The notes beneath the pieces are model-generated. The model saw only the letters and a list, made by a program, of their open reading frames with translations, ran no database searches and was not told the origin of the DNA. A DNA stretch of 27,609 nucleotides, taken from positions 1 to 27,609 of the IMG/VR virus record IMGVR_UViG_3300031576_000595; one strand, 5' to 3'. The stretch comes from a virus. The translations under genes were made by a program, and so were the position numbers. The stretch's first letter is position 1, and the number at the start of each line of letters is the position of its first letter. Below, in pieces: positions 500 to 22,462 of this stretch.

Positions 500-895
500 A
501 TGCCGGCACCCACCAAAAAGCCGGCCGCCGGCGACTCCATCGCCGAGATGATCCGGCTGATGCCGAGCAACCAGCGAGCCGATTTGCTCATCGAGGCGAT
601 GCGCAACAGCGCCTACGTCCTGCCCAATACTCCCGCGAGCCAAGTCCACAGAATCCTCGCTGAATGGGCCGAAGGACCGCAGCAGCAGCGCAAAATAGAG
701 GACGATTTTCTTAGCAACTACTATCTTCAGCGCATTCAGCAAGGCAAGCCGATGCCGGTCAACAGCTTCCGCGACATCGGTTACATTCTCCAGGCGATCC
801 ATCGAGGACTCCCCAGCGAGCTGCGCAGCAGTGGCGGCGGCAAACCGGATGCGCCGCAGCGCATGGGCGCCGCACCCGGGTTCGACGATTGGTGA
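500..895 (+). CDS. Hypothetical protein, possible small terminase subunit
   Basis: The gene encodes 131 aa starting at ATG 500, one base after the previous stop, and ends in TGA 893-895, which overlaps the terminase GTG start (GTGA). The protein is soluble and mainly helical, with the motif MIRLMPSNQRADLLIEAM near residues 17-34 and a disordered Gly/Ser/Pro-rich tail. Position directly before the large terminase and translational coupling to it suggest a small terminase or DNA-recognition subunit. I see no clear helix-turn-helix, so this is inference from gene order only. Confidence 0.6.
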   Translation: MPAPTKKPAAGDSIAEMIRLMPSNQRADLLIEAMRNSAYVLPNTPASQVHRILAEWAEGPQQQRKIEDDFLSNYYLQRIQQGKPMPVNSFRDIGYILQAIHRGLPSELRSSGGGKPDAPQRMGAAPGFDDW

Positions 896-3230: not shown

Positions 3231-3248
3231 CTGTGCAGTGGGGCGTGG

Positions 3249-3490: not shown

Positions 3491-3505
3491 AGCGAGGTGT
3501 CTACA

Positions 3506-3547: not shown

Positions 3548-3553
3548 CTCACT

Positions 3554-6656: not shown

Positions 6657-6669
6657 GCCCTGCCACCTC

Positions 6670-6699: not shown

Positions 6700-6740
6700 C
6701 TACCTGCGGGAAACCCCCAGGGGCCGCCCAGGAGACGTGC

Positions 6741-7574: not shown

Positions 7575-7576
7575 CT

Positions 7577-8059: not shown

Positions 8060-8069
8060 GAGGACGGTT

Positions 8070-8591: not shown

Positions 8592-8594
8592 TCC

Positions 8595-9500
8595 GTGGCA
8601 ACTCAACGTGCTCTACTTCCCCAAACGCTCGAAGCCGGCATCAAGCGCATCTACTTCCGGCGGCTGGGGATGACCCCGACCTTCTTTACCCGCATCTTCA
8701 ACATCGAGACGAGCAGTCGCGCCTTCGAGGACATGCTGCGAGCAGCCGGCCTCGGAACGATGGTGCTGAAGCCCGAAGGCACTCCGGTCAGCTACGATGA
8801 CCCGGTGCAGGGTGCCCGTGTGCGAACCGTCTTCCTGACGTTCGCACTCGGCTTCCGCGTCACGATGGAAATGTCGGAGGACGAGGAGTACCGCGTCATC
8901 GCCCGGATGCCCGAGGAGCTGGCCGACAGCACCGCGGACCATCGTGAGCGCGTGGCGCACGAGGTGCTGAACACCGCGTTCGTCACGACCTCCTTCACCG
9001 GCCTCGACGGCGCAGCCCTGTGTGGCAACCACACGAACCTCAAGACGGGCACCGTCCAGTCCAACAGCTTGACGCCAGCGGTCGGCCTCAGCGTGTCGGC
9101 GATGCAGTCGCTCCTCACGGCGTTCGAGACGTTCACGAACGAAAGCGATCGGTTCGTGGCGATGCGCCCTGCGACGCTGCTGGTTCCGCCTGCCCTCCAC
9201 TACGCGGCAGCCGAGATCCTGAAGTCGCAGGAGCGCCCCGACACGACCGACCGTGCGACGAACACGGTCAGCACGTCGCAGACCGGTGTTGACTACATCT
9301 CCGATCTGTACCTCACGGACCCGGACAACTACTTCCTGATCGCCGCGAAGGGTCAGCACGACCTGACGTGGTGGAACCGGAAGTCGCCGACGAAGGCGAT
9401 GTCCGTGGACACGGACACCTACGACATGAAATGGAACATTCACTATCGCGCGCAGGCGGCGTTTTACGACTGGCGAGGAACGATGGGTTGCGCGCCGTAA
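8595..9500 (+). CDS. Major capsid protein (HK97-type fold, Mu gpT-like)
   Basis: Start GTG 8595 has GGAGGAG upstream and lies 3 bases after the previous TAA. The 301-aa protein has the features of an HK97-fold shell protein. These are a long helix near FFTRIFNIETSSRAFEDML, an acidic helix rich in Glu (MEMSEDEEYRVIARMPEELA), the loop LCGNHTNLKTGTVQSN seen in Mu gpT-like capsids, and a C-terminal strand set ending in YRAQAAFYDWRGTMGCAP. It would form the capsid shell around the scaffold. Family placement is by motif recall; membership of the HK97 fold is firmer than the Mu-like subgroup. Confidence 0.8.
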   Translation: MATQRALLPQTLEAGIKRIYFRRLGMTPTFFTRIFNIETSSRAFEDMLRAAGLGTMVLKPEGTPVSYDDPVQGARVRTVFLTFALGFRVTMEMSEDEEYRVIARMPEELADSTADHRERVAHEVLNTAFVTTSFTGLDGAALCGNHTNLKTGTVQSNSLTPAVGLSVSAMQSLLTAFETFTNESDRFVAMRPATLLVPPALHYAAAEILKSQERPDTTDRATNTVSTSQTGVDYISDLYLTDPDNYFLIAAKGQHDLTWWNRKSPTKAMSVDTDTYDMKWNIHYRAQAAFYDWRGTMGCAP

Positions 9501-9674
9501 CTATGCGGAATCATTGAGGTTTTTGGTGCCTCACAAGGACAACGAAACACGGCGGGCCTACTTGGCTCGGAAGTCGCAAGACCCTGTAGCGTGAAGTCGT
9601 CGCAGCGCCTCAGTGCGTAATCCTGGGGCACTTTCCCGCACAACACAACGTTGTGTATCAACGGAGGAACTGTC
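9501..9674 (+). other. Intergenic region after the capsid gene
   Basis: No gene is supported here. The region holds an inverted repeat GTGCG (9613-9617)/CGCAC (9637-9641) with an inner GGG/CCC pair, then a perfect palindrome listed separately. It separates the abundant capsid product from the next gene, so a terminator or RNA-processing role is plausible, but no U-tract follows either structure. No convincing sigma70 promoter is visible. Confidence 0.4.
9643..9656. repeat. Perfect 14-bp palindrome
   Basis: ACACAACGTTGTGT equals its own reverse complement. It ends 18 bases before ATG 9675 and just before that gene's GGAGG SD. It could be a protein-binding operator or a short RNA hairpin (ACACA/TGTGT with an ACGT loop). 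Confidence 0.55.
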
Positions 9675-10580
9675 ATGCCGAGTCGATTTCGTGGTCCGCT
9701 TGTAGCTTCGAGTTCTACGCACGCCGAACGGGCTCCGGCCGACATCCTGTCACGGATTGGGCTGCCCGCGCAGCGAGTCATCCACATCGACTTCACCAAC
9801 GAGGCCAACCACGTCGCGAACGCGGCGGGGTCACAGTTGATGACGCCGGTAGGCAACGGCTTCGGTGCAACTCCGGCTCCTACGATTGCTGCGGCTCGAC
9901 GAACATCGGCTCCGTTTTCAGGTTTGACGACGCTCCAGCTCACTCCGAGCGACGCCAACAACGAGGGTACACAGCTCGTATGGGGCACTCCGGGTGGTGG
10001 CGCAGGCGTTGCCGCTGACGGATTTGGGCTTGGAACAGCACTTGCCAGCTTTGGTAGTGAGCCTTGTACTGCTTTCTACAACAGCATTTGGGGCTTCCGT
10101 TCCGCTGGTTCAGACCATACTGGCGGTGTCTTCGCGTTCGGCTTCATGGCACACGACGGCGTTGCAGCCAACTGTGTTCTCGACACCGCCGGTGCTGCAC
10201 AGACGACTATTCACGGGGCTTACCTTCGATATGTTGGGGCTGCCAGTATCGAATGTGTATCAGTGGGTTCATTGGCGTCACTCAGCACTACGGTTGCCTT
10301 GACTGGCGGCGCAACTCCGGCTCTCGTCGAGACTTCTCACTACCTGTCGGCCGTGCGCATGGAATGGAACGGCCTCAGCGCGACTGGTGCTGGCTTGGGC
10401 AGCATCAGCTTCTACCACGGCCTGCGCACTGGCCCTATCCGCAGGATTGCCCAGCACAGCATGACGACATTGGGCGCGATGAATGGGCTTGCACCCGGCG
10501 TTTGTGGTGTACGTGTTTCTGCGGCCGTCATCATCGAGATTGCCGGCATCATGTGTGCCACTACGGTCCCGGTCATCTAG
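9675..10580 (+). CDS. Virion-type protein, possible fibre or decoration
   Basis: ATG 9675 is preferred to TTG 9651 because GGAGG stands 7 bases upstream. The 301-aa product is rich in Gly, Ala, Ser and Thr and looks mainly beta-strand. Its segments include RVIHIDFTNEANHVANAAGS near residues 32-51 and MEWNGLSATGAGLGSISFYHG in the last third. There is no signal peptide, unlike the genes after it. The sequence style fits a phage surface or lectin-like structural protein. Exact role unknown. Confidence 0.65.
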   Translation: MPSRFRGPLVASSSTHAERAPADILSRIGLPAQRVIHIDFTNEANHVANAAGSQLMTPVGNGFGATPAPTIAAARRTSAPFSGLTTLQLTPSDANNEGTQLVWGTPGGGAGVAADGFGLGTALASFGSEPCTAFYNSIWGFRSAGSDHTGGVFAFGFMAHDGVAANCVLDTAGAAQTTIHGAYLRYVGAASIECVSVGSLASLSTTVALTGGATPALVETSHYLSAVRMEWNGLSATGAGLGSISFYHGLRTGPIRRIAQHSMTTLGAMNGLAPGVCGVRVSAAVIIEIAGIMCATTVPVI

Positions 10581-10593
10581 CCGGAGGTGCTGC

Positions 10594-11022
10594 GTGTATT
10601 GGCTGCTTGTCGCCTTACTCGTGTGCTGCGGTACGTCGGCGTCGGCGGCTGACGGCAGCTCGCTCACCGCCTACGCAACCGGAGCCTACGCGGTTTACGA
10701 GTACTTCCTCTGCGACGGCGACCACACCACCACCGACTGCAACGAGATCGACCTCCACCGCGAGATCGCAGGCGGGCTCCCTGAGTATGTGGTGGCCGAC
10801 CTCAACAGCACTACCGGCTGCGCAGGTGCAGTAACGGTGGACGTGCGCGGGCTTGCGGATGCAGTGGGGTTCCCATCCATCATTCAGCAGCTTACACTCG
10901 CTGGTGTAAGTTCGGTGGTGCTCGACCCAACGACGCATCGTTTTGTGGATGGTGTAGTCGGCGTAGGGGCTGGCTGCACCGACCTCGAAGTCATCCTGCG
11001 CTTCTTCTACCCGAGGCTATAG
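10594..11022 (+). CDS. Exported four-cysteine protein, paralogue A
   Basis: GTG 10594 has GGAGG 6 bases upstream and starts a signal peptide (MYWLLVALLVCCGTSASA, likely cut before ADG). The mature part of the 142-aa protein has four Cys: CDGDHTTTDC (two, eight residues apart), one near TTGCAG and one near GAGCTD, a number and spacing that suit disulfides in the periplasm. The C-terminus DPTTHRFVDG...ILRFFYPRL is shared with the next gene. No enzymatic motif is seen. A secreted Cys-paired protein inside a capsid and tail operon is unusual. Possible roles include surface modification, superinfection exclusion or a virion accessory; none is shown. Confidence 0.75.
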   Translation: MYWLLVALLVCCGTSASAADGSSLTAYATGAYAVYEYFLCDGDHTTTDCNEIDLHREIAGGLPEYVVADLNSTTGCAGAVTVDVRGLADAVGFPSIIQQLTLAGVSSVVLDPTTHRFVDGVVGVGAGCTDLEVILRFFYPRL

Positions 11023-11025
11023 CCA

Positions 11026-11511
11026 ATGAAACACGCGATTTGCTTGCTCGCTGCCTTGCTGGTGGGTACGCCGGGGTGGGCCGTCGATGGTGGTTTCCTG
11101 ACGACCTACGCCAGTGGGCACTATACTGTACTGGAGTACCTGCTTTGCGATGGTGTCCACAACGCTCCGACCGACTGTGCTGAGTTCGACTTGGCAACCA
11201 GCCCAAGCGCAGGATTACCCAAGTACTTTGTGGTGAGCCTACGCCAAGACGACTGCCAGCTAACCGCCAACGACGTACAGATCCAGCTCAATAGTCGTAC
11301 CGGCATCACGGGTCCAGCAGCCACTAGCCCTGGTGCACATTCGGCCGGAGTGCTGAGCTGGGACGGTGGAAGCAGCGGCGTGGCTTCGATTCCCGTGAAC
11401 CCAACTACCCACCGCTTCGTGCGCGGCGAGGTGTTGGTTGGTGGAACCGGCGTATGCGCCGACTTCGAGGTGGTGCTCCGGCTGTTCTACGACAGGTTCC
11501 TCGGCCAGTGA
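11026..11511 (+). CDS. Exported four-cysteine protein, paralogue B
   Basis: ATG 11026 follows the previous TAG by 3 bases, with GAGG 9 bases upstream. The 161-aa product has a signal peptide (MKHAICLLAALLVGTPGWA). The mature part aligns with the preceding protein: LTTYASGHYTVLEYLLCDG, a second Cys in PTDC, one in QDDC and one in GVCADF, then NPTTHRFVRG and VVLRLFYDRFL. The first Cys spacing is one residue longer and the middle carries an insertion. The two genes are clearly a tandem duplication that has diverged. Function unknown. Confidence 0.78.
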   Translation: MKHAICLLAALLVGTPGWAVDGGFLTTYASGHYTVLEYLLCDGVHNAPTDCAEFDLATSPSAGLPKYFVVSLRQDDCQLTANDVQIQLNSRTGITGPAATSPGAHSAGVLSWDGGSSGVASIPVNPTTHRFVRGEVLVGGTGVCADFEVVLRLFYDRFLGQ

Positions 11512-12746
11512 AGTGGACTGCTGCGCTGCTGTGCCTATCGCTCGCGTCTGCGGGATGGGCAGGAACGATTGCGCGCGTTGGCACCACAATGGCCGTACCG
11601 GCTGAGACGACCGACATTTTCATCATTTGGGGCGACACCCAGTTATCGTCTAGCGACCCAGTCCTGGGGCCGCCCTGCATTGCTACTAGCCGGTGCAACG
11701 ACCAAGTGGTGCAGGCGCAGTGGGCTTGCGATCGTAAGGTAGCTGAGAACATCAAAGGTGTGCTGGGGGTTGGGGACATCGTGTTCAACCCTCTAGACAC
11801 TTTGCAGTATGACAACATGACCGTGGCTACCAACGTCCTTGCTGGGTGCGGCATCCCTTACGTCCCAACCTTCGGCAACCATGAAGCCGCAGCAGGTGGT
11901 GCTGCTGTAGACCAGCCAGATACAGCTAGCGATGGCACGAACTATTGGACCTACTACGGTATCCCTGCCGATAGTAGGCCCTGGTTTACGGCGCGCGGGA
12001 ACTATGAGGAGGTTGCTGGCCCCGGGAGCACCCAAGACCCAGCCGGCACCAACCTCTATCTAGAGGCCAACAACACCGGGGCTCGGAGCTTTTGGGGGCG
12101 CTTCGGGAGCCGGTTTGCAGTAGTGAGTGCAGAGTGGGAGCTGGGCGCCCGTATCAGGGCTGCTAGCTCCTGCGGGAACACTTCGGCTACTTGGGGGTGG
12201 GCTCAGGGTGTAATGGCAGCCAACCCGCGGCTGGTGTTCATCCACATTACGCACGACGGCCCTTGCGAGATGTCGGCAGGGGCTCCCCAGGCAGTAGGGT
12301 GTGGGCAATGGACGAACACTCTTACTGGTACTGCCTGCGACCCTACTAGGTTGTGGAAGCAGTACCGCGACAGCAATGACAACGCATTGGTCTTCCTGCA
12401 TGGACACCGTAACGAGAACGGCGGTGGTGTAGAAACCAATGGGGGCGGCTTCGTAACTAACATCGTAAGGGACAGCGGGACCAACGCCCTGATGGGCGGA
12501 TACGATTTCACCTTCGGCACTCGCGCTTACAACGCTAACACCAGCTATGGGTGGAGTGGCCGACTCCGGTGGCAACGCGCCCAACGCAATGTGTGCCTAC
12601 AGAGCATTCGTACAGTCAACGCCACGGTGGCCCTACCCGCTGTCCAAACTGTCTATCCGTTGGCGGCCCCTGACATCGATCGTCCTACTAACAGCAACAC
12701 CGCAGAAACCTGTGTGCCGCTTGTGCTGCCGCTGGCGCTTCGATGA
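11508..12746 (+). CDS. Exported calcineurin-like metallophosphoesterase
   Basis: GTG 11508 overlaps the previous TGA (GTGA) and begins a signal peptide (MKWTAALLCLSLASAGWAG); the frame upstream of it is antecedent shadow. The 412-aa protein carries the metallophosphoesterase series. This consists of WGDTQ (D43), GVGDIV (D90), GNHE (123-126, N124 and H125), HITHDG (H246 or H249) and LHGHRNENG (H298 and H300), which together bind two metals and cleave phosphate esters. The mature chain has ten Cys, so disulfides are likely. The substrate is unknown: phosphorylated envelope sugars, nucleotides, lipids or cyclic nucleotides are all possible. It may change the cell envelope or be part of the particle. 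Confidence 0.82.
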   Translation: MKWTAALLCLSLASAGWAGTIARVGTTMAVPAETTDIFIIWGDTQLSSSDPVLGPPCIATSRCNDQVVQAQWACDRKVAENIKGVLGVGDIVFNPLDTLQYDNMTVATNVLAGCGIPYVPTFGNHEAAAGGAAVDQPDTASDGTNYWTYYGIPADSRPWFTARGNYEEVAGPGSTQDPAGTNLYLEANNTGARSFWGRFGSRFAVVSAEWELGARIRAASSCGNTSATWGWAQGVMAANPRLVFIHITHDGPCEMSAGAPQAVGCGQWTNTLTGTACDPTRLWKQYRDSNDNALVFLHGHRNENGGGVETNGGGFVTNIVRDSGTNALMGGYDFTFGTRAYNANTSYGWSGRLRWQRAQRNVCLQSIRTVNATVALPAVQTVYPLAAPDIDRPTNSNTAETCVPLVLPLALR

Positions 12747-12904
12747 GGGGGCTCGCGCTCGCCGCGCTCCTCTTCGCGTCTCCTGCTTTGGCCGTCCCCG
12801 CTTTCCAGGGCTGCGAGGGCTTCGGGTGCGAGACGCCGGGCGGGCGGGGCGGACGATCGCCAGCCAGACCGCGCTGGGTCTATGGACTCAAGGGACAGCC
12901 GTGA
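12743..12904 (+). CDS. Short exported protein with pectate-lyase-like N-terminal motif
   Basis: ATG 12743 overlaps the preceding TGA (ATGA), and this gene's own TGA at 12902 overlaps the next GTG, so it is wedged into the operon. The 53-aa product begins with a signal peptide (MRGLALAALLFASPALA). The next segment, AFQGCEGFGCETPGGRGG, closely resembles the FPGAEGFG-x-GGRGG start of secreted right-handed beta-helix polysaccharide lyases, but the helix domain is absent. It may be a remnant of such a gene or a free-standing small protein. Two extra Cys replace the usual Ala. Confidence 0.6.
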   Translation: MRGLALAALLFASPALAVPAFQGCEGFGCETPGGRGGRSPARPRWVYGLKGQP

Positions 12905-13203
12905 CCGTGTTTGGGCTCTCCTCGGATGCGCTTCTCGGCGTCGGCGTTCTGCTCGTGTCGCAGGGGCTCCTCATGTGGCGCGCGAACGCGCTACACGCTC
13001 GGCGCTTCGAGGAGATAGCCGCGAAGCTAAAACACCAAGACGACTGCAACGACAGCCTCCGGCTGAAGGTCGCTGAGGGGGACCGGCAGATCTGGGAGTC
13101 GATCGACCGGATGGGGCGTGAGCTGGCTACCCTGATCGGCCGCTGGGAGGGCGTCGTGACAGAGCGCGAGGCACAGGATCGCCGTCGCGCACTGGAAGGG
13201 TAG
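12901..13203 (+). CDS. Membrane-anchored coiled-coil protein, possible holin or inner spanin
   Basis: GTG 12901 overlaps the upstream stop as GTGA. The 100-aa protein has one N-terminal membrane segment (SDALLGVGVLLVSQGLLMW, near residues 8-26) and then a charged helical tail from ARRFEEIAAKLKHQ to the end, likely a coiled coil. This layout resembles an inner spanin (Rz type) or a single-span holin-like protein. No endolysin or outer-spanin partner is obvious beside it, so a lysis role is tentative. Confidence 0.65.
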   Translation: MTVFGLSSDALLGVGVLLVSQGLLMWRANALHARRFEEIAAKLKHQDDCNDSLRLKVAEGDRQIWESIDRMGRELATLIGRWEGVVTEREAQDRRRALEG

Positions 13204-13213
13204 AGTTCACGCG

Positions 13214-14386
13214 ATGACGCACCTTCTGACTTTCGCTTTCGTGATCGTCCTCGCGGAGCCCGCTACGGCGAGCTGCCTCACGAGCCTACAGCCCCACTCG
13301 TGCGTCGGGACGCTCGACGCCGAGAGCACCGACGAGACGATTGAGGCGACGGACGCGCTCGAGCTGATCGACGCCGACTGCGAGATCTGGACCGGCGACG
13401 CTGACGAGGGCCAGGCCGTCGAGTTCAGCCAGGCGCTCGCGCCGAATCCCGACCGGAGCTGCTGGTTCAGCGGCCAGACGGTCGGCCCGTTCCCCGCGCT
13501 CGGCGGGCAGGCGAACCCGGTCTACGAGTGCGTCAACGGCTCGGAGCATTGCAACGGTTCCGACTGCTGCCTGCTCGATCCCTTCTGCCCTGGGTGCTCG
13601 GCTGAGATCCCCGGCTACAACGGCTACCACACGAAGCAGGCGATGGAGTTCCATTCGAGCGCGACGGGAACCGCGGCGGGGACCAGTAACCTCCTCTGGC
13701 AAACGACGTTCTCGTCGAGCGGCGACGGGCTCTCGGTTGCCGACGACGGGAACGTACCGGCCGGGGCGAGCCCGCTGATCGACGTTCGCACCTCGTGCTT
13801 CGCCTACCTGCGAGATGACGCGATCGAGGATGACTTCCGCAAGCACAGCATCCGCGCGCAGGGCAACATCATGAACCGAGTCAACTTCGCGTTCGCCTAT
13901 GACGACCGCGATGGACTCGGGAGCCCACCCGCCAGTTGGACCTTCCACATCCGGGCCAACACGATCTGGCTCTACAAGTTCAGCCGGACCTACAAGATGC
14001 GCCCGAAGTTCGGTGGGCTCTTCAAGGAGGATGGCGCGGGCTACTTTCCCGCGATCAAGTTCCTCAGCAACCACATCTTTCTCAAGAAGGGTCCGCCGTC
14101 GAATCCGCAGTACAACCTCAGCGACCCGAACGGCATCCCGTCGATCTACCCTGACCCCGCTGCTGTGACCGCGTGCGCGAGCAACCTCTACCACTTCGGC
14201 GGCACGCAGGCTGAGTGGGATGCGCTCGACGCTGCGGGAGTGAACGCGGGTAGGCGCGCGGCGCTCAACGCTGCGTTCCCCGGCTGCATCAGCGTCTCGA
14301 TCGAGAGCGCGCAAGGCTTCGAGGACTACTTCGACACCCTGGTAGCGAACTACGAGGTGCTCTCCGGCGTCGATTGCAGCCTGTGA
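13214..14386 (+). CDS. Exported Cys-rich protein with beta-helix-like signature
   Basis: ATG 13214 begins a 390-aa protein with a signal peptide (MTHLLTFAFVIVLAEPATAS). A Cys-rich segment follows (for example HCNGSDCCLLDPFCPGC, near residues 114-130). Around residues 196-220, CFAYLRDDAIEDDFRKHSIR strongly recalls the RDDCIENDxxHxGxVxDSLF rung of secreted right-handed beta-helix proteins. The C-terminal half is aromatic and Gly-rich. Likely role: binding or degradation of cell-surface polysaccharide, or a secreted structural protein. I see no unambiguous catalytic triad. It sits 10 bases after the preceding gene. Confidence 0.65.
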   Translation: MTHLLTFAFVIVLAEPATASCLTSLQPHSCVGTLDAESTDETIEATDALELIDADCEIWTGDADEGQAVEFSQALAPNPDRSCWFSGQTVGPFPALGGQANPVYECVNGSEHCNGSDCCLLDPFCPGCSAEIPGYNGYHTKQAMEFHSSATGTAAGTSNLLWQTTFSSSGDGLSVADDGNVPAGASPLIDVRTSCFAYLRDDAIEDDFRKHSIRAQGNIMNRVNFAFAYDDRDGLGSPPASWTFHIRANTIWLYKFSRTYKMRPKFGGLFKEDGAGYFPAIKFLSNHIFLKKGPPSNPQYNLSDPNGIPSIYPDPAAVTACASNLYHFGGTQAEWDALDAAGVNAGRRAALNAAFPGCISVSIESAQGFEDYFDTLVANYEVLSGVDCSL

Positions 14387-14395
14387 AGGAGACGG

Positions 14396-14659
14396 ATGCT
14401 CTACGTCCGCTGGCGGGTGACAACAGCGGTTCGCGGCAAGAGCCTCACCGACTGGCACCGGGCGAAGTTCAACGATAGGAGAACGCGATGCGGCTACCGA
14501 ATCGACGGCGGCTCGGAGTGGGCGACGGACAAGCCAGAGGGCGCGGCCTGCGGGCGCTGCACGCGCTGGCACTCGCAGCCTGTGGGGCGACGCTCGCGTA
14601 TGGGACGGGCGGCTGCGAGGGAGATTGGTTCAGTGACCCCGCCGAGCCGGCCATCCTGA
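14396..14659 (+). CDS. Small Cys-pair (zinc-type) hypothetical protein
   Basis: ATG 14396 has AAGGAG directly upstream. The first 55 residues contain LTDWHRAKFNDRRTRCGYRI and then EGAACGRC, an H...CG...CxxC arrangement found in small zinc-binding phage proteins. The final 30 residues are basic, low in character and overlap the next gene in another frame, so they may be a read-through tail rather than folded sequence. Likely nucleic-acid or protein contact, function unknown. Confidence 0.6.
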   Translation: MLYVRWRVTTAVRGKSLTDWHRAKFNDRRTRCGYRIDGGSEWATDKPEGAACGRCTRWHSQPVGRRSRMGRAAAREIGSVTPPSRPS

Positions 14660-14886
14660 TTCGCGCCGGGGAGTGTCAGGGCGCGATGACCCTCACCGGG
14701 AGCGACGGCTGGGGCGGGGAGTGGAGCGCCACGGGCCTCTACGACCGCGACTGCGTGCTGCTCGCTGAGCCTTGGCTCTCGTGGTTCGCGCGCGTGACCT
14801 GCGACGCCTCGGGGATCTCTGGGCATGTGCCGGGGGCACGGCTGGCGGCGCGCGGGGATGGGCTCTGTGGTACGCTGGTGTGGTGA
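14488..14886 (+). CDS. Probable lipoprotein
   Basis: ATG 14488 has an AGGAG SD; GTG 14518 is an alternative that leaves fewer residues before the signal. From the ATG, the 132-aa product has a basic N-terminus and a hydrophobic stretch LRALHALALAACG. Its LAAC is a lipobox that would anchor the mature Cys33 to the envelope. The mature part is beta-like and has several Cys (GGCEGDW, GECQG, RDCVL, TCDAS, LCGTL). It overlaps the previous gene by 172 bases. It might be a phage-encoded envelope protein, for example for exclusion or as an outer-spanin-like element, but no family is recognised. Confidence 0.6.
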   Translation: MRLPNRRRLGVGDGQARGRGLRALHALALAACGATLAYGTGGCEGDWFSDPAEPAILIRAGECQGAMTLTGSDGWGGEWSATGLYDRDCVLLAEPWLSWFARVTCDASGISGHVPGARLAARGDGLCGTLVW

Positions 14887-15287
14887 GCCGCGCCGGCTAC
14901 TCCGACGACTGCGACGACGATTGGGGCTGGATCAGATACCGCGGCAGCGTCACGAGCGCGATCCGCGGCAAGCGCGGGCAAGCGTTCTTGCGAGAGCTGC
15001 TCGCCGCGCTCGACGCGCTGCCAGAGCCTCGACTGATCCAAGGCAACTTGATGACCGAGTGCGGCGTGTGCGCGCTCGGCGCCGTCGGTCTGGCACGAGG
15101 ACTCGATCTATTGACGTGTGACCCCTACGACCACGAGGCCATCGCGCAGACGTTCGGGATCGCGAGCGCCCTCACTCGCGAGATCGCATACGAAAACGAC
15201 GAGGGAGTTGCCTGCGATACGCCGGAGCAGCGGTTCGCGTGCGTTCGCGAATGGGTCGTCTCCCGGATCCGAGCTGAGGCCGCATGA
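14883..15287 (+). CDS. Conserved phage hypothetical protein
   Basis: GTG 14883 overlaps the preceding TGA (GTGA). The 134-aa product starts SRAGYSDD, continues RGKRGQAFLRELLAALDALP and CALGAVGLARG, and ends DTPEQRFACVREWVVSRIR. I recall this combination as a conserved protein of unknown function in proteobacterial phages and prophages, where it sits among small accessory genes. It is soluble. Its presence supports the Gram-negative host and marks this region as an accessory block rather than a structural one. Confidence 0.8.
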   Translation: MSRAGYSDDCDDDWGWIRYRGSVTSAIRGKRGQAFLRELLAALDALPEPRLIQGNLMTECGVCALGAVGLARGLDLLTCDPYDHEAIAQTFGIASALTREIAYENDEGVACDTPEQRFACVREWVVSRIRAEAA

Positions 15288-15352
15288 TCGCGCAGCGCTG
15301 CCCGTGGCAGCACTTTCGCGACTGGATAGACGCTTGCGACGCGGAGCGATAG
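15284..15352 (+). CDS. Possible 22-residue protein
   Basis: ATG 15284 overlaps the preceding TGA (ATGA) and the frame runs to TAG 15350-15352, encoding MIAQRCPWQHFRDWIDACDAER. The ATGA coupling is the same arrangement used by real genes nearby. The product is too short to judge by motif and may be chance. The remaining gap to 15401 also holds a 12-codon frame at 15374 with weak support. Confidence 0.3.
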   Translation: MIAQRCPWQHFRDWIDACDAER

Positions 15353-15401
15353 GCTCTGCGGGAGGCTGGTGAGATGAGCAGCCCAGTGGAGGGAGCAGGC
15401 G

Positions 15402-15857
15402 GTGCAGTGTGAGACCATCGAAACGATCGTCGAGACCCCGCTCTACGTCCTGCGCCGCGAGCGCTGGCGTATGGGCGACGAGGAGGAGTGGACGCAGACG
15501 GAGACCGCGTACACGCCGAGCGGCGATTACATCGGGGATGGGGAGTGGTCGCGGTTGCTCTGCGACCAGCATGGGATCGCGCCCCAGAAGCGCTGTCTTG
15601 AGTCGAGCGTCTGCTCGATCGGATTCTCGGAGAAGGAACAGCGCTGGTACGGCTGGAGCCACCGCGCTGTGTGCGGCTTCGGGATCGGCGACGTGGTGGA
15701 CTCGCCGGAGCACCTCTGCGCGACATCGGGTTGGGTAGATGGCATCGACCCGACGACGGGCAAGCCCGACGAGAACCCGCTGCCAGTCGGCTTCGAGGCG
15801 AAGACGATCGAAGATGCGAAGCGGATGGCGATTGCCTTCGCAGAATCGGTGAACTGA
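15402..15857 (+). CDS. Conserved phage hypothetical protein
   Basis: GTG 15402 follows GGAGGGAG. The 151-aa product contains YGWSHRAVCGFGIGD near residues 84-98 and GFEAKTIEDAKRMAIAFAES at the C-terminus, a pairing I recall from conserved small proteins of proteobacterial phages. The N-terminal part (ETPLYVLRRERWRMGDEEEW) is charged and aromatic. Soluble, no export signal, function unknown. It belongs to the same accessory block as its neighbours. Confidence 0.78.
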   Translation: MQCETIETIVETPLYVLRRERWRMGDEEEWTQTETAYTPSGDYIGDGEWSRLLCDQHGIAPQKRCLESSVCSIGFSEKEQRWYGWSHRAVCGFGIGDVVDSPEHLCATSGWVDGIDPTTGKPDENPLPVGFEAKTIEDAKRMAIAFAESVN

Positions 15858-15860
15858 GAA

Positions 15861-16157
15861 GTGGCTTCGAGCCACGAGCAGCCCAACGAGCGTACGAACG
15901 CCGCCGAGTGCGGCAAGGAGATGATCGTGGAGGAGCTGCGAAGAGCGATCCTGAACGCGAAGGGCGAGCTAGATCGGCTCATGTTGCGCTCCGTGGCCGC
16001 AATGGAGATTGCTGAGGGCATGGATGGTCACAAGAAGATCCCGCGAGATTGCCCAATGTTGATTGCCGTCTCGAAGCTGCGCGAAGACTTCGATGCCCTC
16101 ACCACTTCACCACCCGTGCAAGCGCAGCCGGCCGACGCCGCGCAGTGGGAGAAATAG
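15861..16157 (+). CDS. Small helical hypothetical protein
   Basis: The frame begins at GTG 15861, 3 bases after the previous stop, without a clear SD. A better-supported start may be the in-frame GTG after AAGGAGATGATC near 15927, giving an N-terminus VEELRRAILNAKGELDRL. The product is mostly helical with a disordered, Ala/Gln-rich tail. I do not recognise it. It precedes a damaged gene. Confidence 0.55.
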   Translation: MASSHEQPNERTNAAECGKEMIVEELRRAILNAKGELDRLMLRSVAAMEIAEGMDGHKKIPRDCPMLIAVSKLREDFDALTTSPPVQAQPADAAQWEK

Positions 16158-16199
16158 ACGATGGCGATGGCCGTAGTTTCTCAAGAAGGGTCCGCCGTG

Positions 16200-16405
16200 A
16201 TGAGCGAACTGGTTATCTACCACGGCGACTGCGTAGACGGCTTCACGGCCGCGTGGGCGCACCGCTACTTTCACGACGGTAGGGCGCAGTACGTGCCGGC
16301 GAAGGCTTCGCAGAGATCAAGCGGTTGCGAGAGGAGCTTGGTATCCAGCCTGGTGAGCCGCTGATCGCGCTAGAGCCGCCGCCCGTTCGTGCGGCTGGCA
16401 GGTGA
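16200..16405 (+). pseudogene. Broken DHH-phosphoesterase gene (N-terminal fragment joined to another C-terminus)
   Basis: ATG 16200 (SD GAAGGG 9 bases upstream) starts SELVIYHGDCVDGFTAAWAH and reaches QYVPAK. This is the typical first 40 residues of DHH-family phosphoesterase-like phage proteins, including the D-x-x-D-G-x-x-A-A-W motif. After that the frame turns to Ser-rich sequence and stops at 16364. In a different frame, the same DNA reads GFAEIKRLREELGIQPGEPL and on to TGA 16403, which looks like a genuine protein end. The simplest reading is an internal deletion with loss of frame. Complete members are several times longer. Confidence 0.6.
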
Positions 16406-16408
16406 CTG

Positions 16409-17089
16409 ATGGCAGCGGCCGACCTTACAATCATCCAAAGCGGTGCATGGGACGGCGCTGCAACGTGGACCCCGAGCGCCTTCGGGATCGCCCGGATGGA
16501 CGCCCCGTGGTCTACGTGGGTGGAGGTAGCTGCCGGGCCGGCTATCACCGACGTTCCTACTGCTCTCGGCATCCGGCTGAGCCCGTTGTTTACCGAGAGC
16601 GGCACGCTGATGGTAAGGGCCCACACGCCCTCAGCGCCTCTCCTGACCGACTTCTCGGCTGCGAACCTCCCAGTACCCCAAGCCTCCAGCAGCGTGTCTG
16701 TCAGCTTCGCTGCGGGCGTACCGCTCGACATCCTGATCGCGCTCTCGATTGCAACAGGCGAGGCGTCGCCGGTCGGCTTCCGGTTGCGCCACGCCTGGAA
16801 GCGAGACAGCCTTGGGCACTACCGCGTTGGGATCGGCTTTCTGTTCAGCGGTGTAGGCGGAAACGTCGGCGTGCTCGGCGTCCCGCTTACCTACGCGGCT
16901 GGCTTCAGCGGCGCGGTCGGCCTCACGGCTGCGGCTGGCACTGACCAGGCCGTCGAGTGCCCGCGCTGCGGTAACCCGGCGCTGCGCAGCGCGCTCATCG
17001 CTGACGGCGTGACGAAGCAGCTCGTATGCGCGGAGTGCTATGATCCACCGACGATCTTGCGTCCGCGGACGTGGCCGTTTCGGGAGTAG
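16409..17089 (+). CDS. Virion-like protein with C-terminal zinc ribbon
   Basis: ATG 16409 starts a 226-aa protein. The first 180 residues are beta-rich with Gly and aromatic residues (TIIQSGAWDGAATWTPSAFG; WKRDSLGHYRVGIGFLFSG), like a structural domain. From about residue 188, CPRCGNPALRSALI...VCAECYDPP gives two CxxC pairs about 23 residues apart, a zinc ribbon of the type that also occurs as small separate phage proteins (C-PRC-G ... C-x-x-C-Y-D). The gene begins the tail module, just before the adaptor. The protein may join particle parts or bind DNA or protein through the ribbon; not established. Confidence 0.65.
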   Translation: MAAADLTIIQSGAWDGAATWTPSAFGIARMDAPWSTWVEVAAGPAITDVPTALGIRLSPLFTESGTLMVRAHTPSAPLLTDFSAANLPVPQASSSVSVSFAAGVPLDILIALSIATGEASPVGFRLRHAWKRDSLGHYRVGIGFLFSGVGGNVGVLGVPLTYAAGFSGAVGLTAAAGTDQAVECPRCGNPALRSALIADGVTKQLVCAECYDPPTILRPRTWPFRE

Positions 17090-17092
17090 CTG

Positions 17093-17794
17093 ATGGGCGT
17101 TGCGACACTTCAAGCCCTGCGTGACGAGCTGCGGTTCGGGGTCGGCGGCTTCCTAGCAACGGCTGATGAGCTTCCCGACCCGCGAGTCGATCGGTGGCTC
17201 GGATGGGCGCTGCTCCACGTCAGCCGGCCCTCGATTTACAGCCACCGCGAGTTGATGACCTCCGGGACGTTCGCACTCGTCGCCAGCACTCCAAGCTACA
17301 CATTGGCGAGCTTTGGCACGACAACCGACAATGTGCAGGCCATCCGCCGCGTCCACTACGAAACCCGCGGCCACCGGCTGCGCCCCATGTCGCATCGCCA
17401 GTATCTCGAAGCCGCCCGTCGGGCTGACGGAACTGTTGTGACCGGCGAGCCGCAGCAGTACGCAATCGACGGCCCCAGCCTGTACGTCAGTCCAGCGGCG
17501 TCTGCCAACTTCCTCGGGACAGTGCGGGTGTTCTTCTTCCGCAAGCCCACGGCCCTCGCAGCAGCAGGGGCAGCAACCGAGCTAGCTGAGGACTGGGATG
17601 AGGTGATTCTCGCGGGTGGGGTGTGGCGAGCCTTCCGCGCTCTCAACGTCGCTGACCGCGCAGAGCTAGCAAAGCTCAACTTCGGCCAGCTCGTTAACGA
17701 GGTACGCGACCGACTGCGCGAAGACGCTCAGCAGGATCACGACGGCCACACATTCGAGGTGGAAAACCTCGACTATCAGGAGAACCCCGTATGA
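17093..17794 (+). CDS. Head-to-tail adaptor protein
   Basis: ATG 17093 follows the previous TAG by 3 bases with GGGAG upstream. The 233-aa product begins with a helical segment (LQALRDELRFGVGGF) and then DPRVDRWLGWALLHVSRPSI, the D-x-x-V-D-x-W-x-x-x-A-x-x-x-x-x-R pattern of podovirus adaptor or connector proteins. These sit under the portal and carry the nozzle. A beta region (SFGTTTDNVQAIRRVHYETR) and a helical end follow. It lies one gene upstream of the fibre-like gene and two upstream of the nozzle gene, as expected. Confidence 0.75.
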   Translation: MGVATLQALRDELRFGVGGFLATADELPDPRVDRWLGWALLHVSRPSIYSHRELMTSGTFALVASTPSYTLASFGTTTDNVQAIRRVHYETRGHRLRPMSHRQYLEAARRADGTVVTGEPQQYAIDGPSLYVSPAASANFLGTVRVFFFRKPTALAAAGAATELAEDWDEVILAGGVWRAFRALNVADRAELAKLNFGQLVNEVRDRLREDAQQDHDGHTFEVENLDYQENPV

Positions 17795-18840
17795 CGCAGC
17801 AACAAGCCCGTTACCTCCCGTGGCTGCTTGCTGCGCTCGTGCTGGCCGTACCGATCCTGCTGGCGGTGACGTGGGACGCTGCCTTCGAGGCTATCCCTGC
17901 CAACAGCGAAACCGTCTCGCTTGGTGATGATGCTATTCGCAACTTCAAGTTGGAGGTACGCGAGCGCACCGAAGAGGAGCACTGCTGGGCAACACCGGGA
18001 ACTGGCTGCCCTGTTACCGACAACGGCTTCCACCGCACCGGCAGTGCTGCGTGCTTCTCACAAAATGCGGCCCCGACGACGCTTGCCAACCCGGCGGCTA
18101 CCGCGCTCGCCGCGAATCACGTTGGGCGCTGCTGGGTTGATGCTGACGGGGCCGACAACATCGCGGCGAACGCCGACGACAACCGTTTGATGGTGTGGAA
18201 CGGTGTAACGTGGCAAAGCCCGCGGCTAGAGACGGTTGGTGGCGTCGTGCTGACTGCTCTCGCGACTGGCGACCTGATCCGATACAACGGAGCCGATTGG
18301 GTGAATACCACAAAGGCGGTACTCATTACGCGGGATCAGGCTAGCTTCGACATCGACGAGACGTTCACCAATGGTGTGTGTAGTGCGGACTGTACAGGAG
18401 CAGGTGGGGCTGTTCCTGACCACACTGGGGGTAGTGATGTCAACAACTATCCTGAAGTCACTATCCCTTCGACCCCTTCGGGCGTGGTTTGGGATGTCTA
18501 TGTTTACGGCCGGGTTTTTTACCAGATGACATCTGGTGGTGCTGGTGATACGGTGTGCTTCATTAGGCGCGACATAGACGATGCGGATACCTTTCCTACG
18601 CTGCAAGAAGTTTACTACCTGGAAGGTATCTCGAACTCGAACGGGCTTGACCGCGAGTGCATCTTCAACTCAGTCTTCACAGGTGCCGTAGCTGGTAGTC
18701 GGTATGCTTTCCGTTTGCATATGACCGACACCGGCTCGTTGTCGGCAGATTGGGATGTGAACTCTGCGCTCGCGCCGGCTCCGATTTCTAGTACGGCCAA
18801 CTCGCTTATTGTAGAAGCCCGGCCGCGTACACTGTTCTAG
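17791..18840 (+). CDS. Tail-fibre-like protein with N-terminal membrane or signal segment
   Basis: ATG 17791 overlaps the adaptor stop (ATGA). The 349-aa protein starts with a hydrophobic segment (RYLPWLLAALVLAVPILLAV, residues 7-26) and then continues SLGDDAIRNFKLEVRERTEE, the opening typical of phage tail fibres (an AIRNFK-x-x-VRERT-x-x-E helix). The middle contains several Cys, and the C-terminal part is beta-rich and ends TANSLIVEARPRTLF. A membrane or signal segment before a fibre-type domain is unusual. It could be a true export signal, a membrane anchor or a virion-binding peptide. Confidence 0.7.
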   Translation: MTQQQARYLPWLLAALVLAVPILLAVTWDAAFEAIPANSETVSLGDDAIRNFKLEVRERTEEEHCWATPGTGCPVTDNGFHRTGSAACFSQNAAPTTLANPAATALAANHVGRCWVDADGADNIAANADDNRLMVWNGVTWQSPRLETVGGVVLTALATGDLIRYNGADWVNTTKAVLITRDQASFDIDETFTNGVCSADCTGAGGAVPDHTGGSDVNNYPEVTIPSTPSGVVWDVYVYGRVFYQMTSGGAGDTVCFIRRDIDDADTFPTLQEVYYLEGISNSNGLDRECIFNSVFTGAVAGSRYAFRLHMTDTGSLSADWDVNSALAPAPISSTANSLIVEARPRTLF

Positions 18841-18849
18841 GAGGCTGCT

Positions 18850-20715
18850 GTGCCGTCGAGCCTCGCAGGCAACAGGCCGTTCGGCCGCGGTGGGCGCGCG
18901 GCGGCGGTTGCTGCCTATGCGGCCGAAGAAACCTCCGAAGTCGTTGAGGGGTTCCTCGGCTACACCCCCGACCTCGAACCCGGGCTCGTGGGCCTGCGAG
19001 GCGGTGCAGTGGGCACCTTTGGGCTGCTCCCGAAGGGCGAAACGCTCATCCACGAGACGGGGTGGTCACGAGTCAATCCGGCAAACCTCCCGCTCGGTGA
19101 TACGGGTGCGGGCACGGCTGCACTAGCAGCCGCAGCTCCGCAGGCAGTCAACCACCTTGGCTTCTTCCAGCGTTCGCCCGTCGTTGATAACGAACTCACT
19201 GCCATCACGCAGGACATGGGCGGCGCGCAGAACAGCCATGTGTTCCGCCTGCCCACAACGACGGTGTGGGCGAACGTCCCGCCGCGCGGTGGCTACCCGG
19301 TCGGCGCGAGCCTCCCGACCGCAACCGCGATCAGCCTCGGCGTAGAAGACTTTGTGGACGACGCAACATTCAGCCTCGGCGCTAGTGCTGCGGGGTACGG
19401 ATCGGCAGCAGGACGTGGGGCAGTCGCGCAGCCGGTGTACTTCTTCGCCAACGAGAACAACTTGGTGGGGATGTGGCCGTGCTTCCGCCTAGGCGTCGTA
19501 ACCGAATACGACTACCCGATCGAAGCAATCGGTGCGATCACCGGCTTCAGGGCTGCGTCCTGCGAAGCCTTCGACGGCCGCATGTGCTACCTCAACATCG
19601 TTTACTCGGGCGGGACATTCCCGAACCGCTTGTGGTTCAGCGTCATCGGTGACGGCTCCAACATCAGCCCTGGAAGCGTCGGGGCGGGCTTCATCGACGC
19701 TGACGAGATGCCGGGCGTTGGCCTGCGAGTGCTACGGCTAGGCAATGGGCTCGCAGGCTACTTTACTAGCGGCATCGTTCTGTATTCGAAGCATCAGCCA
19801 CCGCTTGCACCACTCCAACTTCAGTACGTTACCCACCAAGTCCACATTCTCTCTAAGCGGAGCGTATGTGCAATCGACCGTACAAGACATTTCGCTATGG
19901 CTGACCAAGGGTGGTTCATCGTGGGCGACGGAGGCGAGATTGCTGAGGTGGGCCGTGTACAGTCACCTAGTGGCGCAAGCGTCCACAAGTGGATTGCTGA
20001 CTTTTTCAACACGCTGAACCGGCAGGCAACCGAACAAATCTCGTGCGAGTTCGACGCGGTGCCTGGATTTGTTCGGATCAGCTTTCCATCCCGCGAATCC
20101 GCAGTGGCGGATACAGTGTGGTACTACGACGTAAAGTCGGATCGGGTGTGGCCTGCGGCCGACTATGCTGCCCAGCGCATCCAGTCGCAGATTGTGGCTC
20201 CATCGACTGTGGTTGCCGCAACGTCTTGGGGCGCGATGATCCCGAGCTGGGGCAGCACGTCCGCACCGTGGAGCAGCTTCGCAGCCCGCATCGGCTTCCC
20301 GGTGGCGTGGCACGGCACCCGCGCTGGCTACGTGTTCGTCCGTGACGACTCCCAAGGTCCGCTCCGCATGAAGGACGATGGCACAAGCGTCGCGCCTGCT
20401 TTCAGCTACGTGTCGGCGAAGCCTGCAATCGGTGGAAGCTGGACGTGGAAGGAATCACGCCGGCTCGACGTGGAGTACATCAACGTGGGCGGTCCTGACT
20501 TTACGCTTGCTGTTGCTGTGGACGAACGCTCGTCGAGCGTCACGCGCAGCGCCCAGTTGCCGCAAGTCGATCAGGCCGGCAACACCTACTACGCGCTAGT
20601 TGGGATCGGCGGGACGCACCACAGCATCCGCATCACCGGAACCGCACCAGTCGCACTGCGCCGGTTCCGCTACACCTACATCCAGCAGCTTGGTACGCGC
20701 AAGAGCTACCCGTGA
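18850..20715 (+). CDS. Tail nozzle (beta-propeller) protein
   Basis: GTG 18850 has AGGAGG 5 bases upstream. The 621-aa protein has the layout of podovirus nozzle proteins (P22 gp10 or T7 gp12 kind). It includes repeated beta-blade sequences, the region HKWIADFFNTLNRQATEQIS followed by PGFVRISFP and DTVWYYDVKSDRVWPA, and a C-terminal domain with CEFDAVPG-like and WKESRRLDVEYINV stretches. It would form the short tail tube below the adaptor. No signal peptide. Its GTGA overlap with the next gene suggests translation as a unit. Family call is by pattern. Confidence 0.75.
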   Translation: MPSSLAGNRPFGRGGRAAAVAAYAAEETSEVVEGFLGYTPDLEPGLVGLRGGAVGTFGLLPKGETLIHETGWSRVNPANLPLGDTGAGTAALAAAAPQAVNHLGFFQRSPVVDNELTAITQDMGGAQNSHVFRLPTTTVWANVPPRGGYPVGASLPTATAISLGVEDFVDDATFSLGASAAGYGSAAGRGAVAQPVYFFANENNLVGMWPCFRLGVVTEYDYPIEAIGAITGFRAASCEAFDGRMCYLNIVYSGGTFPNRLWFSVIGDGSNISPGSVGAGFIDADEMPGVGLRVLRLGNGLAGYFTSGIVLYSKHQPPLAPLQLQYVTHQVHILSKRSVCAIDRTRHFAMADQGWFIVGDGGEIAEVGRVQSPSGASVHKWIADFFNTLNRQATEQISCEFDAVPGFVRISFPSRESAVADTVWYYDVKSDRVWPAADYAAQRIQSQIVAPSTVVAATSWGAMIPSWGSTSAPWSSFAARIGFPVAWHGTRAGYVFVRDDSQGPLRMKDDGTSVAPAFSYVSAKPAIGGSWTWKESRRLDVEYINVGGPDFTLAVAVDERSSSVTRSAQLPQVDQAGNTYYALVGIGGTHHSIRITGTAPVALRRFRYTYIQQLGTRKSYP

Positions 20716-21062
20716 GTTCGCCGCTCGACTTCACTTTCGGCAGCTATCTTGGCATCCAGATGGTCCCGATTGCGGCGACCGCAGCCGGTAACAACACTGT
20801 GCTCGCAGCGGTTCCTGACCAACGGTGGGTGGTGCTCTACATGGTGATCGGAAGTGGCCCGGCCGGCGATACGCTGACGATTTTCAGCGGCGGGACGGCA
20901 GTTTCGGGCGCAATGGTCATTCCCAACAACTTTGGGCCAGCTCCGTTTGGCAACTCGGGTCAACCGATCGCGCGCGCCCTCAACGTCAACCAAGCCTTGA
21001 TTTTCAACCTCGTAGCTGGTAACGATATCACCGGCTGGGCGATAATCGGGACGACGCGATGA
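20712..21062 (+). CDS. Small beta-sandwich virion protein
   Basis: GTG 20712 overlaps the nozzle TGA (GTGA). The 116-aa product is nearly all short beta-strands with Gly turns: TLTIFSGGTAVSGAMVIPNN, then FGNSGQPIARALNVNQALIF and NDITGWAIIGTTR. This looks like a small jelly-roll or Ig-like virion decoration or tail-accessory protein. No Cys, no signal peptide. The function is not certain. Confidence 0.7.
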   Translation: MSSPLDFTFGSYLGIQMVPIAATAAGNNTVLAAVPDQRWVVLYMVIGSGPAGDTLTIFSGGTAVSGAMVIPNNFGPAPFGNSGQPIARALNVNQALIFNLVAGNDITGWAIIGTTR

Positions 21063-21727
21063 AACGAACACCGTGCTTGCTCGCGATGGTGCTGTTGGCA
21101 CCGCTGCTGATGGCTGTCGCCATCGTCATTCAAGACGAAGGTGGGACCGTCGCAATCGGCCGGTACACATTCAACTTCACCGGAGCTGGCGTAACCTGCG
21201 TAGACAACGTAGGCGGCAACCGGGTAGACTGCACAATCACGAGCGGCGGTGGCGGGGCTCCAACAACCGCCGAGTACGTGACGACTCAAGATGACGCAGG
21301 GTTGTCGGCCGACGTATTTCCCGGTGCAGACGATCAGGTGATCGTCTCCGACAGTGCTACAGCAGCAACGTGGCGCGGCGTCCCGAACTGTGGAGAGGCA
21401 GGAACTCTCAACTACGATGTTGCTATCAACACGTTCTCCTGCCTCACGGACACAAGTGGGAACTCTGTTGAGACAACGCTCGTGCTCTCCAACGGATCGG
21501 GATACTTCGCTGTTACGGTCACTGGGCAGGCGTGGGTTACATCAACCAGCGAGATCGTGTGTGCCCCACTAGGTACTACAGCCGATGGGCTTACACCGGA
21601 GGCGATTGCCGTTGCGGACCTTGGGGTGTCGGTTGCTAACCGCGTTGCCGCAACTGGCTTTGACGTTCTGGTGTACTCCCCTAATGGGCTTGATGGAACA
21701 CTGCGCGTTCACTGTATAGGAGTTTGA
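21059..21727 (+). CDS. Exported fibre-like protein
   Basis: ATG 21059 overlaps the preceding stop (ATGA). The 222-aa product has an N-terminal hydrophobic signal or anchor (MKRTPCLLAMVLLAPLLMAVAI), then IQDEGGTVAIGRYTFNFTGA and a Cys-containing stretch (VTCVDNVGG...DCTITS). The NFTGAGVTC part matches the NFTGAGVT opening of phage fibre domains. The rest is beta-rich with a few Cys. As with the gene at 17791, an export segment is joined to a fibre-like sequence. Confidence 0.68.
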   Translation: MKRTPCLLAMVLLAPLLMAVAIVIQDEGGTVAIGRYTFNFTGAGVTCVDNVGGNRVDCTITSGGGGAPTTAEYVTTQDDAGLSADVFPGADDQVIVSDSATAATWRGVPNCGEAGTLNYDVAINTFSCLTDTSGNSVETTLVLSNGSGYFAVTVTGQAWVTSTSEIVCAPLGTTADGLTPEAIAVADLGVSVANRVAATGFDVLVYSPNGLDGTLRVHCIGV

Positions 21728-21729
21728 AC

Positions 21730-22395
21730 ATGAAGCGACTCGTACTTCTACTGCTCCTGTTGTCGGCCCCGGCATTCGGACAAGGCGTACCGATCAAGGG
21801 CGGCAGCAGCTCCGACCTAGTGACGGTTGACGCGAACAAGAACGCGCGGGTAGCGGCTGGTGTGTCAACGCGAGCGAGCTACGCGCTTGCGAGCACGTTC
21901 ATCTGTACCGCAGCAGCGAACATCGCGACCATCGAAGCGCCGGCTAGTACAGGCTTCAAGGTGACGAAGCTCTGCATCAACCCGGGCCAGGTGACGACAT
22001 CGTTCCCGCGCATTTTCACGATCACGCGGCGCACAGCGGCATCGACGGCAGGAACGCTGGCGACTGCCGAAGGTACGGCGGTTCCGGCAATCTCGAAGCG
22101 CGACTCAGCCGACGGAAACTACGGTGGAGTCGCGCGTGCGGCGTCTGCCGTAGCGATTACTGGCGGAACGCTCGGTGCGGTAGTGGACGTGTTCACGTTG
22201 CACGCGCCTACTGTCGGGTCGGCCACCGTCAGCAACAGCCTAGTACCATTCTGCCGCGAGTACGGAGAGAACGGCTACACGAAGCCGATCGCCGTGCTTG
22301 CTGGTGTCGCGAACGGCATCAACGTGGCCGACGGGGCTGGTGGCGGTGCTGCCTGCACGAACGCGACTATTTCCATCGACATCATCGTCGAGTAG
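21730..22395 (+). CDS. Exported beta-rich protein
   Basis: ATG 21730 is preferred to TTG 21724 because AGGAG lies 7 bases upstream of it. The 221-aa product has a clean signal peptide (MKRLVLLLLLLSAPAFG, likely cut before QGVPI). The mature part contains GSSSDLVTVDANKNARVAAG and alternates Ala/Thr/Val strands, with four Cys. It is similar in style to small phage surface proteins. Function unknown; it ends the fibre and tail group. Confidence 0.7.
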   Translation: MKRLVLLLLLLSAPAFGQGVPIKGGSSSDLVTVDANKNARVAAGVSTRASYALASTFICTAAANIATIEAPASTGFKVTKLCINPGQVTTSFPRIFTITRRTAASTAGTLATAEGTAVPAISKRDSADGNYGGVARAASAVAITGGTLGAVVDVFTLHAPTVGSATVSNSLVPFCREYGENGYTKPIAVLAGVANGINVADGAGGGAACTNATISIDIIVE

Positions 22396-22417
22396 ACTTC
22401 CTGACGAGGAGAACGCT

Positions 22418-22450
22418 GTGCCCAGGCAGAATGAGCTAGGCTTCCTCTAG
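22418..22450 (+). CDS. 10-residue micro-ORF in frame with the next gene
   Basis: GTG 22418 has GAGGAG upstream and encodes VPRQNELGFL, then TAG 22448-22450. The next gene (ATG 22463) is in the same frame, with GGG GCG CGT CTG between. The arrangement matches the micro-ORF before the portal. The downstream ATG has its own AGGGGG, so this one is less persuasive. Confidence 0.3.
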   Translation: MPRQNELGFL

Positions 22451-22462
22451 GGGGCGCGTCTG

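Follow-up and report, generated by a model that had tools for sequence, protein, structure and literature searches.

Predicted Sec-exported, cysteine-paired proteins within the structural operon of an IMG/VR virus and its relatives

The virus record IMGVR_UViG_3300031576_000595 of IMG/VR, analysed here as one stretch of 27,609 bases with 63% GC (the window), carries the particle genes of an uncultured tailed phage on its plus strand, where all genes discussed below are located. Among these particle genes, between positions 10594 and 22395, we found a set of genes whose products carry predicted Sec signal peptides followed by even numbers of cysteines (Cys), and which probably leave the cytoplasm of the infected cell during late infection. 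In several related phages, a fixed slot of the structural operon is filled entirely by predicted exported, Cys-paired proteins. Furthermore, fibre-type domains occur in both signal-bearing and signal-less forms. Proteins of tailed phages normally stay in the cytoplasm, and the late genes of these phages are interpreted as coding for lysis proteins or for cytoplasmic parts of the particle. We lean towards the view that the set is exported late by Sec and acts outside the cytoplasm, and that it combines envelope or matrix enzymes with fibre modules refitted for export.

Results

Signal peptides among the late genes

A first-pass annotation had read signal peptides, a lipobox or signal anchors at nine gene starts inside a virion operon. 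All nine reading frames exist with exact coordinates, and the operon is indeed a virion operon, flanked by the genes of the terminase large subunit (TerL), the portal, the major capsid protein (MCP), an adaptor and a nozzle-like protein. The signals were checked with a rule-based scorer, which takes into account the n-, h- and c-regions, the AXA cleavage site and the lipobox. For calibration we used 112 proteins encoded in three regions of E. coli K-12, among which a cut-off of at least 6 recovered 21 of 22 known exported proteins versus 1 of 67 cytosolic ones. Eight of the nine starts reached this cut-off. They encode protein 1 (10594..11022, GTG start, signal peptide MYWLLVALLVCCGTSASA, score 7.1, 4 mature Cys), protein 2 (11026..11511, MKHAICLLAALLVGTPGWA, score 6.1, 4 Cys), protein 3 (11508..12746, GTG start, score 6.7, 10 Cys), a mini-protein of 53 residues (12743..12904, MRGLALAALLFASPALA, score 7.0, 2 Cys), protein 5 (13214..14386, MTHLLTFAFVIVLAEPATA, score 6.9, 14 Cys), a protein with a virion-type N-domain behind a 25-residue signal or anchor (17791..18840, score 6.1, 8 Cys), a predicted exported fibre-module protein (21059..21727, score 7.8, 6 Cys) and a predicted exported decoration-like protein (21730..22395, MKRLVLLLLLLSAPAFG, score 8.4, 4 Cys). 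Each is named below by its first position.

The features of a type I Sec signal (n-region, uncharged hydrophobic core, small residues at -3 and -1) are present in eight of the nine proteins. Most of them have a short core followed by an AXA-like site, and the mature parts contain no further transmembrane (TM) stretch. The hydrophobic stretch of 17791 is longer and may be an anchor or a signal. The ninth member, 14488 (14488..14886), is doubtful, scoring 5.9 with a cut at residue 39; its long Arg-rich N-terminus precedes a weak hydrophobic stretch, and its codon-position GC is unusual. The surrounding region 14396-15400 contains overlapping open frames with odd codon-position GC, and gene calls near 14488 are uncertain. 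The lipobox did not hold, as none is convincing in the eight good cases and the LAAC of 14488 is unconvincing; a strict reading of the set as exclusion lipoproteins was rejected for this reason. Searches of all nine proteins against Pfam and PHROGs returned nothing significant.

Chance levels were low. In codon-shuffled window sequence, 18 of 1836 start codons scored as signals (about 1%), and none of the ten upstream window genes (500-10580) passed within a 35-residue limit. The same scorer passed 2 of 37 genes of phage lambda (Lom and the Rz anchor) and 1 of 17 genes of phage T7.

A predicted exported block at a fixed position in related phages

Relatives were obtained by searches with the MCP and the portal, and a portal alignment worked as a query for scanning viral contigs; scans with the nozzle-like protein alone, a nozzle alignment or the 10594 family yielded nothing. 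Near matches to 10000-22500 were not found among 50,697 phage records. INPHARED was also searched, for near matches and at the protein level, with 11508, 17791, the nozzle-like protein and the block, all without a match; TerL matched distantly only. We compared eight phages, namely the window and seven relatives with an MCP or portal 31-60% identical (L001, L002, L008, L018, L019, L020 and L022). All seven keep the order MCP, capsid-adjacent gene, exported block, the block being defined as the genes between the capsid-adjacent (LamG-type) gene and a lysis-type gene or the contig end. In the eight phages, 24 of 25 block genes score as signal peptides at a threshold of 5, as against 0 of 70 upstream head-module genes; at 5.8, 22 of 25 still do so (Fisher p ~1e-18). 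The 25th gene, L022:9832, has a signal by eye (WVWFTLLVAAWLFASPAHA).

Where the contig continues, lysis-type genes follow the block, encoding a TM plus coiled-coil protein, an SLT transglycosylase (E 1e-12, L022) or an M15-like protein (L008). The TM plus coiled-coil gene closes the block in L008, L020 and L022; its window counterpart (12901..13203), with a single TM segment and a coiled coil, is a candidate lysis protein of the spanin or holin type. No endolysin was recognised in the window. L008 and the L022 phage then continue with the zinc-ribbon, adaptor, fibre-N-domain and nozzle genes. L008 is a 55-kb contig in a metagenome-assembled genome labelled Phycisphaerales.

Single signal-bearing proteins were also seen after the MCP or nozzle gene in portal relatives at 22-23% (L029, L031, L035, L036, L042 and L046); those that are complete contain an even number of Cys. 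One of the proteins, L046:16465, has at least 919 residues.

Even and dense cysteines

The first-pass remark that most of the nine proteins contain Cys understated the pattern: the mature counts of the eight good cases are all even. Even Cys numbers are preferred in extracytoplasmic bacterial proteins (PMC7678975), and in our E. coli control the count was even in 10 of 12 proteins. Among the Cys-containing block and late members of the clade, 26 of 28 have an even mature count (indicative p 1.5e-6 against 0.5), versus 23 of 51 head genes, and the median density is 2.9 Cys per 100 residues in these members versus 0.6 in head genes (indicative p 5e-13). Two doubtful proteins (14488 and L022:15082) were counted uncut. 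Such even and dense Cys are likely the mark of disulphide-bonded extracytoplasmic proteins. Together with the position of the block and the conservation of signals between homologues, this parity strongly supports the late-operon exported set that the first-pass annotation had proposed.

Homologues with and without a signal

Proteins 10594 and 11026 are paralogues and form one family with L008:12115 (33-42% identical by BLAST), each member having its own signal and conserved Cys. The signal is likewise kept in the homologous pair L019:10007 and L020:9801. The L022 phage also has adjacent signal-bearing paralogues (L022:11618 and 12366, 43% identical), as in the window pair, and tandem duplication seems common in the block.

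The N-domain of 17791 recurs without a signal in relatives. From residue 24 it matches the protein at the same position in the L022 phage (tblastn E 2e-11), and further homologues are found in L054 and, by alignment and position, in L012, L041, L046, L050 and L053. All of these start directly at the domain. The order adaptor, N-domain protein, nozzle is the same in L012 and L054. BLASTP of 17791 against the L012 counterpart alone was not significant (E 0.18), and the two are linked through the L054 homologue and the shared position. The L012 protein contains no Cys, as against eight after the signal of 17791.

The C-terminal half of 21059 is 39% identical to a signal-less, fibre-like protein of the L022 phage with one Cys (E 8e-9), and within the window this domain is found in the exported 21059 only. 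Conversely, 21059 is 47-52% identical by BLAST to L055:19914 of MW202637, with which it has two Cys pairs in common and whose N-terminus is signal-like (score 4.7). Beside it and in the same order, MW202637 encodes a homologue of 21730 (40% identical) that likewise keeps the signal and Cys pairs; both homologues are annotated there as hypothetical proteins only. Proteins 17791 and 21059 share domains with tail fibre and virion proteins carrying fibre N-domains, but these relatives start at the domain and are Cys-poor, whereas in the window both have a signal and paired Cys. The comparison suggests that 17791 and 21059 are virion- or fibre-type modules fitted with export signals, and 21730 probably belongs with them.

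The circular phage L055 (MW202637.1 17775-43972, Manatee Spring) has several signal-bearing proteins in its structural region: 3638 after the MCP, 7806 after the nozzle-like gene (a signal followed by a fibre-type N-domain) and the pair 19914/20390. A further one, 15720, has a ConA-like fibre motif and may be a lipoprotein.

Enzyme-like members

Protein 11508 is similar to Planctomycetota proteins in 4 of 294 genomes (best E 3e-8), and one of these proteins has a Tat signal. Two of them (L057 and L059) pass the calcineurin-like metallophosphoesterase model PF00149, and 11508 aligns with both over the metal-ligand motifs GD90..N94, GNH123-125, H249 and GH299-300. It fails the Pfam model itself and is best described as a candidate calcineurin-like metallophosphoesterase. 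An AlphaFold2 model of 11508 alone failed (pLDDT 30). Together with the label of L008, its Planctomycetota kin are hints, no more, to the host. In the related phages, L008:14660 is a GDSL-type esterase (E 5e-15), L020:11706 matches Trypsin_2 slightly under the curated cut-off (E 3e-5), and L018:10383 resembles, by eye only, the start of a pectate-lyase-type beta helix.

AlphaFold2 gave a low-confidence beta-sandwich for the 11026 family (pLDDT 61). Its top Foldseek matches were virus capsid and cement jelly rolls (Ralstonia phage GP4 capsid, KHP40 cement) with E of at least 0.01, and were not relied on.

Discussion

With moderate confidence, we consider it likeliest that the set is exported by Sec late in infection and works outside the cytoplasm. 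The signals, the fixed slot, the Cys pattern and the homologue contrasts are computational results, from which export, cleavage, disulphides and a role at the cell surface are inferred. Proteins with cleavable Sec signal peptides would be expressed together with the late genes and carried by the host Sec system across the inner membrane, where the signal would be removed and the paired Cys would form disulphides; their action would take place outside the cytoplasm, as the infection nears its end. One subset, located right after the capsid gene and beside the lysis genes, would be a changing mix of small beta proteins and envelope- or matrix-active enzymes, such as the phosphoesterase-like 11508 and the GDSL esterase, trypsin-like and pectate-lyase-like proteins of the relatives. 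The other would comprise 17791, 21059 and 21730, as virion- or fibre-type modules with signals. The set may serve to change the exterior of the dying cell by loosening its envelope or slime and by occupying receptors, which would keep the cell and its debris from recapturing progeny or admitting other phages. We consider envelope or matrix alteration with receptor occupation the most likely task because of the enzyme-like members, the lysis-type neighbours and the exported fibre modules; among the three roles proposed by the first-pass annotation (envelope remodelling, blocking of other phages, addition to particles outside the cytoplasm), the enzyme-like members of the window and its relatives favour action on the envelope or matrix. 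A precedent for receptor occupation is found in T5, where externally added purified receptor-binding protein pb5, or the exported lipoprotein Llp, blocks infection, and where the llp gene adjoins that of pb5 (PMC9586334). In the window phage, 21059 and 21730 follow the nozzle gene, and no receptor-binding protein gene is assigned.

Several points weigh against this reading. Domain type is the single pointer to receptor masking. Most members match no family, so the term envelope-active rests on a few of them, and a PF00149 search of the window had no match, 11508 lying below the curated cut-off. The block is not essential to this type of virion, since the farther portal or MCP relatives (L041, L043-L045, L053 and L005) mostly lack it. 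Finally, the gene starts were partly picked by eye or by hand, and homologues are not independent, which makes the p values of the Cys comparison indicative.

The main alternative, possible though unlikely, is that the exported proteins acquire disulphides as they fold in the periplasm and are added to progeny particles outside the cytoplasm, at lysis or later, to serve as fibres or decorations. Both 17791 and 21059 have domains that in relatives are of virion type and lack a signal, which is compatible with both receptor masking and particle addition; both genes adjoin the adaptor and nozzle genes. The C-terminal domain seen in the L022 phage's fibre-like protein, which occurs in the window in the exported 21059 only, points in the same direction, as do the fibre-like signal-bearing proteins of MW202637. 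However, the enzyme-like members and lysis-type neighbours suit envelope action equally, and we know of no tailed phage that is built in this way, its particles being finished outside the cytoplasm from exported proteins. The broader proposal that a tailed-phage clade finishes or arms its particles in a second compartment, with Sec-exported fibres or decorations that acquire disulphides in the periplasm and are joined at or after lysis, appears slightly more doubtful still.

We regard it as improbable that the genes are late cargo ("morons") of host origin, that is, secreted enzymes or adhesins that benefit infected cells or lysogens and have no direct lytic role. The Planctomycetota kin of 11508, with one Tat signal among them, and the varying content of the slot are consistent with cargo. 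Nevertheless, the slot is never empty, it comes right behind the capsid gene and in several phages borders on lysis-type genes, and several members are fibre-type modules of phages. If the hydrophobic N-termini were kept as membrane anchors or as segments for attachment to virions, and the proteins stayed uncleaved in the membrane or in particles, the long hydrophobic stretch of 17791 (19-mer mean 2.4) would be explained. This explanation is very improbable for the set, given the short cores with AXA-like sites, the even Cys counts and the mature parts devoid of TM stretches. The last explanation is an artefact, arising from the way starts were chosen and from N-termini that are hydrophobic by chance. 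The GTG starts of 10594 and 11508, the alternative GTG at codon 26 of 17791 and the weak 14488 might point to it, but it was rejected as scarcely credible in view of the ~1% shuffled rate, the 24/25 versus 0/70 contrast, the conservation of signals in homologues and the start context of 17791, whose ATG has an AGGAG and overlaps the stop of the preceding gene, while GTG-26 lacks a ribosome site.

Such an exported set resembles known systems in part. The superinfection-exclusion lipoproteins Llp of T5 and Cor of phi80 are also small exported phage proteins, but each is one small lipoprotein, whereas the window has many non-lipoprotein Sec signals, large proteins and several operon loci; no sequence relation between them was shown. 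Lambda encodes the late exported envelope proteins Lom and Bor, and there too a gene for an exported protein lies beside tail genes; Lom, however, is a single outer-membrane protein, while the window set looks soluble, is rich in Cys and has a fixed place behind the capsid gene. Sec-exported or signal-arrest-release endolysins and spanins are phage lysis proteins that use host Sec, and lysis-type genes adjoin the block, but its members are not recognisable muralytic enzymes, and candidate endolysins (M15-like and SLT) are encoded separately in the L008 and L022 phages. No description of such an exported set was found in open-licence papers. Single exported late phage proteins are already known, and a fixed multi-gene exported block in a structural operon, accompanied by exported forms of fibre modules, seems undescribed. 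If the reading is correct, many "hypothetical proteins" of uncultured phages would make up an exported set with a role at the host surface during infection, or else would belong to a second step in building the particle; the enzymes among them would be new proteins active on envelopes or glycans.

Other features of the structural operon

The particle genes that frame the set start with TerL (889..2532; phrog_38, E 4e-58). The portal gene (3554..6532) contains an inserted intein/LAGLIDADG segment (PF14528 LAGLIDADG_3, E 2e-9); its two halves can be aligned to the portals of L001, L002 and L008, which are uninterrupted, and the intein-like insertion, located between PWDGA and SNVVLP, has no counterpart in the close relative L001. 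Four genes served as synteny anchors: the MCP (8595..9500; phrog_371, E 4.5e-11; 60% identical in L001), a zinc-ribbon protein without a signal (16409..17089; 29% identical to L008:20134), the adaptor or head completion protein (17093..17794; phrog_2941, E 1.4e-6; homologues in L012 and L054) and the tail nozzle-like protein, also without a signal (18850..20715; 29% identical to L012:3284; match in the L022 phage, E 7e-46). The capsid-adjacent protein (9675..10580), LamG-like by eye only, has no export signal and finds weakly similar proteins (20-21%) in the same slot of L001, L002 and L008. The zinc-ribbon protein 16409 (CPRCG...CAEC) is kept upstream of the adaptor gene in relatives, and distant ones such as L041 and L044 also encode small zinc-ribbon-like proteins behind the MCP.

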